Source of the DNA: Streptomyces sp. Act143 | Lineage (GTDB): Bacteria; Actinomycetota; Actinomycetes; Streptomycetales; Streptomycetaceae | DNA length: 64,000 nucleotides | Reading direction: 5' to 3' | Assembly: GCF_003143935.1 (NCBI RefSeq) | Contig: NZ_QFRX01000001.1 | Span: forward strand, 2,267,587 to 2,331,586 | In this document: piece after piece, positions 47,394-47,527 of the stretch | Position numbering within the stretch: position 1 is the stretch's first letter | Layout: each line of letters begins with the position of its first letter | Position numbers and translations under genes: made by a program | The notes under the pieces: generated by a model | What the model saw: the letters and a program-made list of their open reading frames with translations, nothing else | Told to the model about the DNA's origin: nothing | Database searches by the model: none

Positions 47394-47516
47394 TTAGACG
47401 CCGTTTCTTTTGGTACCTGCGGGTCGTTGAATGCTTCGTGGGAGACCTGGTCACTGCGGGATGGGCCGACGCATAGCCCCGGTAGCCCCAATCACACCAA
47501 AAGAAACGGCGTCTTA
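47394..47516. mobile_element. MITE with 18-bp terminal inverted repeats and TTA target duplication
   Basis: GACGCCGTTTCTTTTGGT (47397-47414) and ACCAAAAGAAACGGCGTC (47496-47513) are perfect inverted repeats, flanked on both sides by TTA (47394-47396 and 47514-47516). The 117-bp element is non-coding. The T/A-rich ends stand out against the local composition. A 3-bp TNA duplication is typical of IS5-family transposition, so an IS5-type transposase elsewhere in the genome could mobilise it. It sits 12 bp before the next start codon. Confidence 0.88.
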
Positions 47517-47527
47517 GCCTGTGAGCC

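Follow-up and report, generated by a model that had tools for sequence, protein, structure and literature searches.

An apparent 117-bp MITE before a histidine-phosphatase gene of Streptomyces sp. Act143 is very probably an assembly scar of a full-length IS5-family element

The IS1647-like elements of Streptomyces are recognized by an IS5 transposase, by flanking TTA or TAA triplets, and by an inverted repeat of the same kind that recurs in related elements. Two further groups of mobile DNA are relevant here, namely the MITEs, which are short and non-coding and combine both ends of a resident insertion sequence (IS) with a target duplication, and the transporter ISs, which are ISs with passenger genes. 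A 117-bp string located between an aminotransferase gene and a histidine-phosphatase gene of Streptomyces sp. Act143 resembles the MITEs in all of these respects as it was assembled, while it differs from them in that its internal junction lies at assembly contig ends, that a single copy was found, and that it is probably absent from the organism. The IS to which both halves of the string belong shares the above characters of the IS1647-like elements and displays 77.7% DNA identity, over 57% of the IS, to H49, a copy that carries the annotation IS1647 family. Like the transporter ISs, it harbors one gene without a role in transposition within its inverted repeats; unlike in them, this passenger varies between related elements, and it is a DUF4240 gene in the present case. 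Sequence comparison makes it very probable that the apparent 117-bp MITE consists of two contig ends abutted inside a full-length 1389-bp IS5-family element, which was inserted before the phosphatase gene.

The window, that is, the whole stretch of 64,000 nucleotides that was analysed, corresponds to C1:2267587-2331586 of a 9.62 Mb genome assembled in 24 contigs, and it is free of N throughout. As assembled, 117 bp separate the outer ends of the string (47397-47513), which are formed by 18-bp perfect inverted repeats. The 18-mer GACGCCGTTTCTTTTGGT is situated at 47397-47414 on the plus strand and at 47496-47513 on the minus strand with 0 mismatches, and a search of the window that allowed as many as three mismatches, with 0.01 chance matches expected, detected no third site. 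The stop codon of the aminotransferase gene (47343) precedes the first TTA by 50 bp, and the second TTA precedes the ATG of the phosphatase gene (47528) by 11 bp. The first-pass annotation, which had described a MITE with perfect 18-bp ends, a length of 117 bp and TTA on both sides, was thus accurate as far as the letters of the assembly are concerned, and its naming of the two neighbours agreed with the Pfam matches to Aminotran_1_2 and His_Phos_1. The coordinates of the features are collected in Table 1.

Table 1. Features at and around the 117-bp string (positions of the window)
Feature	Coordinates	Strand	Remarks
Upstream aminotransferase gene, 402 aa	46135..47343	+	Aminotran_1_2, PF00155, E 1.1e-54; flanks contiguous in relatives
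Left TTA target duplication	47394..47396		Single triplet at empty sites: TTA in G336, CTA in G315
First 55 IS bases, including left inverted repeat 47397-47414	47397..47451	+	100% to IS 1-55; probable end of the left contig; 55 = 66 minus 11 flank bases common with L018
Probable contig-to-contig join	47451..47452		Some 1272 bp of the IS interior absent; junction not found elsewhere
Last 62 IS bases, including right inverted repeat 47496-47513	47452..47513	+	100% to IS 1328-1389; probable start of the right contig; identical 62-base end at contig ends C1, C6 and C10 and at the L019 gap
Right TTA target duplication	47514..47516		Read from sequence
TAGCCT, restored by the duplicated triplet; probable -10 box of the phosphatase gene	47515..47520	+	TANNNT at -12/-13 in 12 of the 17 relatives readable by pattern (29 tried); putative promoter role
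Downstream histidine-phosphatase gene, 199 aa	47528..48127	+	His_Phos_1, PF00300, E 7e-51; flanks contiguous in relatives

A search of the own genome with the terminal inverted repeat, which had been proposed as a check on the origin of the string, indeed retrieved an IS5-type element with identical ends. The 18-mer occurs without mismatch at 12 sites, representing six left and six right ends, and only one pair of them bounds a full element, which is 1389 bp in length, belongs to the IS5 family, and is located at C1:1294854-1296242 (locus L017). The 117 bp are composed exactly of bases 1-55 and 1328-1389 of this IS, with 0 mismatches and with 0 bases common to both parts at the join. Besides these two pairs, eight ends stand singly: four left ends (loci L018, L020, L021, and L022) and four right ends, one in L019 and one each at the final bases of contigs C1, C6, and C10. 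No second copy of the 117-bp form was found in this genome. The full copy is flanked by unequal triplets, ATA and TAA, and can thus not serve as a clean reference. It lies between the C-terminal part of a COX1 gene and a LuxR-type response regulator, and may represent a chimaeric path of the assembly or an IS-mediated rearrangement. As a separate observation, the response regulator and the COX1 fragment (L017:217-855 and L017:2245-2880) are joined across the sole full copy of the IS.

All ten broken ends of the IS (five left and five right) stop 55, 62, or 63 bases inside the element, and these lengths are described by a simple rule, according to which the assembled IS length equals 66 minus the number of flank bases in common with another copy. 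If contigs overlap by 66 bases, a contig that enters the IS out of a unique flank will stop 66 bases beyond the point where its flank begins to match that of another copy, and hence the IS portion is shortened by the common flank. The value of 66 was picked after the lengths had been seen, so that the rule was fitted to these data, and it was later found to fit overlaps outside this IS. The window and L018 have 11 flank bases in common, with 55 bases predicted and 55 observed in both; L020 has 3 (63 predicted and observed), and L021 has 4 (62 predicted and observed). The five broken right ends have 4 common flank bases each, and 62 bases were both predicted and observed in 5 of 5. The rule is consequently exact for nine of the ten broken ends, and the tenth, L022, which has 4 common flank bases, is one base longer than predicted (63 instead of 62); a one-base chance match would explain this excess. 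An overlap of 62 bases (k = 63) was considered as well, which fits the right ends but fails at the 55- and 63-base left ends, whereas 66 fits all of them except for the one base in L022.

Overlaps of the same size were also encountered directly. L018 and L021 have exactly 66 bases in common before their joins, and the join consists of 100 N in L021, while nothing stands between the abutted contigs in L018. These 66 bases (L018:1968-2033 and L021:1559-1624) run up to the contig join before the two sequences diverge, and they belong to another repeat at which the assembly broke. In L020, the IS end directly adjoins a sequence that is identical, base for base, with positions 1-66 of contig C24. 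Sixteen of the 24 contigs were present only as N, and the comparison covered 14 readable contig ends, among which overlaps of at least 20 bases were confined to the IS ends of contigs C1, C6, and C10 (63, 63, and 66 bases) and to C4/C22 (66 bases). The stretch abutted in L022 is a 97% copy of C1:6709364-6709433, which proves nothing. Judged from the sequence, the join in the window (47451/47452) belongs to the same class as the abutted joins in L018 and L020.

The assembly also misplaces pieces at this repeat, as revealed by the right end in L019 and the left end in L020, whose flanks are about 131 kb apart in scaffold C1. When these flanks (300 and 200 bases; L019:736-1035 and L020:2003-2202) were rejoined with a single TTA, a continuous match to LPMO_10 was obtained (residues 1-118, E 3.1e-40). 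Two frames were open across the join, and the Pfam match was added since an open frame is no proof alone. The unbroken match indicates that both ends interrupt one gene and are the two ends of one IS copy; scaffold C1 is misordered or broken at L019/L020.

These observations suggest the following course of events. A full-length IS1647-like IS with a DUF4240 passenger would have inserted at CTTAG between the aminotransferase and phosphatase genes, duplicating TTA. The draft assembly, which was probably of the de Bruijn type with contig-end overlaps of 66 bases, would have been unable to place the repeated interior, so that the left contig would retain the first 55 bases of the IS and the right contig its last 62. 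Written adjacent to one another without N, the two contigs would give rise to a false 117-bp MITE, and the missing stretch is presumably the full interior of the IS.

The reading proposed by the first-pass annotation, a real 117-bp MITE, would require an internal-deletion derivative of the IS that the IS5 transposase moved in trans to a TTA target, and we regard it as very improbable. It accounts for much of what is seen, since the string as assembled is short and non-coding and shares its terminal inverted repeats with an IS resident in the genome; the perfect ends, the TTA on both sides, the presence in this genome of a parent IS whose ends are identical, and the clean empty sites in relatives, together with the correctly paired flanks and the matching TTA, are likewise expected of a MITE. 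Against it, both breakpoints (55 and 62) coincide with the contig-end positions that the 66-base rule predicts for this repeat, a coincidence estimated at about 1 in 1,700 for independent breakpoints in 41-base ranges, and two other IS ends of this genome are abutted to unrelated contig ends, so that the internal junction is unlikely to be real DNA. Nor was a further copy or the junction itself met with elsewhere. The 117 bp were matched in 5 of 392 genomes of the genus including its own, the other four matches being partial and none of them spanning the junction, which was unseen in the 391 other genomes when the top two candidates per genome were scored. A 26-mer across the junction gave no match in the GTDB contigs or in IMG/VR, collections from which the own or very near records may be missing. 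The IS is seldom met with in the sampled genomes of the genus, and this absence of the junction is accordingly weak evidence.

Far less probable still is an IS that was truly shortened by a later internal deletion, with breakpoints close to the contig rule by chance. Partial relatives do occur, in that L025 and L114 begin only at about base 587; nevertheless, both ends are intact in the window with matching TTA, and the breakpoints obey the assembly rule.

The preferred reading, an insertion of the full IS, is in accordance with the insertion site itself. The joined flanks were searched against the 392 genomes, and among the matches listed, at least 31 genomes match them in one piece, while the other listed matches cover one of the two genes at a time and are uninformative on the site. 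In alignments, the two closest relatives exhibit an empty site with a single triplet, reading CTCTTAGCCTG in G336 (CTTAG) and CTCCTAGCCTG in G315 (CCTAG), and a third genome, G237, carries no insert either at a less similar site. The expectation that related strains would hold one copy of the triplet was accordingly confirmed, albeit as TTA in G336 and as CTA in G315, and an insertion between the two genes is well supported by these sequences. As an alternative, a non-mobile hairpin conserved for the regulation of the phosphatase gene is next to negligible, for although the string lies directly upstream of the gene and is predicted to fold, the joined flanks align unbroken in at least 31 genomes and the site is empty in G315 and G336, so that a conserved structure of these 117 bp at this locus was rejected. 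The predicted fold of the strand is strong (DNA z -4.42) because the inverted ends necessarily pair.

At 12-13 bp upstream of the phosphatase start codon, the insertion overlaps a conserved TANNNT box (here TAGCCT) that resembles the -10 element of a leaderless transcript. The duplicated TTA would rebuild TAGCCT on the side of the gene, so that only sequence upstream of the box would be displaced, and expression of the phosphatase may survive with upstream sequence supplied by the IS end. The earlier suggestion that a promoter had been cut or replaced thus holds in so far as the insertion falls at a conserved box, but the box itself appears to be restored.

The case implies that a draft assembly can create a perfect-looking MITE, target duplication included, and that MITE surveys of short-read genomes could include such scars. 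It also offers a simple test, namely whether the breakpoints of a MITE fall where contigs end in the repeat's other copies.

The transposase of the IS is encoded in two overlapping frames, which match the Pfam domains DUF4096 and DDE_Tnp_1. The C-terminal frame matches the NCBIfam model NF033580 (IS5 family) with an E value of 1.8e-42 and 145.7 bits (cut-off 110), and the N-terminal frame, as a separate piece, reaches 98.0 bits; a single product from both frames would need a frameshift. In addition to this IS5-type DDE transposase, the inverted ends and a short TNA duplication characteristic of the family are present, the latter being TTA at the window and TAA on both sides in L098, while the triplets of L017 are unequal (ATA/TAA). 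The DUF4240 gene (PF14024, E 1.5e-20), which encodes 143 aa, lies downstream of the transposase in the same direction (L017:892-1323, equivalent to IS 921-1352). Its position between the transposase and the right end explains why this IS measures 1389 bp, in contrast with the 860 bp of the IS1647-family copy L143.

A complete relative with a DUF4240 gene was found in Streptomyces sp. CB02058 (L098), which is 1371 bp in length, is flanked by TAA on either side, and has perfect ends of 18 bases. Relatives of the DUF4240 gene were located at 34 loci of the GTDB contigs, of which L098, L105, and L114 carry the transposase of this group, whole or partial, directly upstream. L123 contains transposase pieces about 2.5 kb off, L108 contains a distant transposase, and at the other 29 no transposase was matched within the locus examined, which indicates that the DUF4240 gene mostly resides outside this IS. 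No paper on DUF4240 was found in a literature search whose coverage excluded most subscription journals.

The passenger slot of these elements is the only lead of some novelty, and an IS with a variable slot of this kind could hold a modest interest of its own. Sixteen plasmid elements were compared, comprising the best 15 of 270 matching plasmid records and one annotated IS1647. A small gene stands between the transposase and the right end in 11 of them (L129, L130, L131, L132, L134, L136, L137, L138, L139, L140, and L141), and the remaining five (L128, L133, L135, L142, and L143) have no passenger and measure 857-860 bp. The ends of 8 of the 11 elements with a passenger and of 3 of the 5 without one were delimited by an equal-triplet search, in which 11 to 16 of the 16 terminal bases agreed, and those of L132, L133, L135, L138, and L140 by motif only, with unequal triplets in 5 of 5. 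The plasmid passengers fall into several unrelated groups, namely two families without a name, of five and four members, a DUF1877-like gene, and a singleton, and DUF4240 occurs in the IS of Act143 and in L098. No paper on such a variable slot was found, which says little, as most subscription journals and ISfinder lay outside the search. PADLOC gave no match for ten passenger proteins; the passengers may, at a guess, be genes of benefit to the host, for example for immunity or addiction proteins.

On the transposase tree of 18 elements, a set of little power, the passenger type changes 10 times against a shuffled mean of 10.9, with 1542 of 5000 shuffles as low, and the lack of excess tree signal fits, weakly at this number, a swapping of passengers. 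The chances appear about even that the IS1647-like IS5 group of Streptomyces is a carrier of small cassettes, in which a single small gene (DUF4240, DUF1877-like, or one of at least three families that Pfam does not name) varies between related elements as if swapped. Two further IS5 elements with other passenger genes were noticed nearby, one at L133:2316-3544 with an ankyrin-repeat gene, its ends placed by motif and TAA on both sides, and the other at L144:1178-2460 with a DUF2750 gene and different ends.
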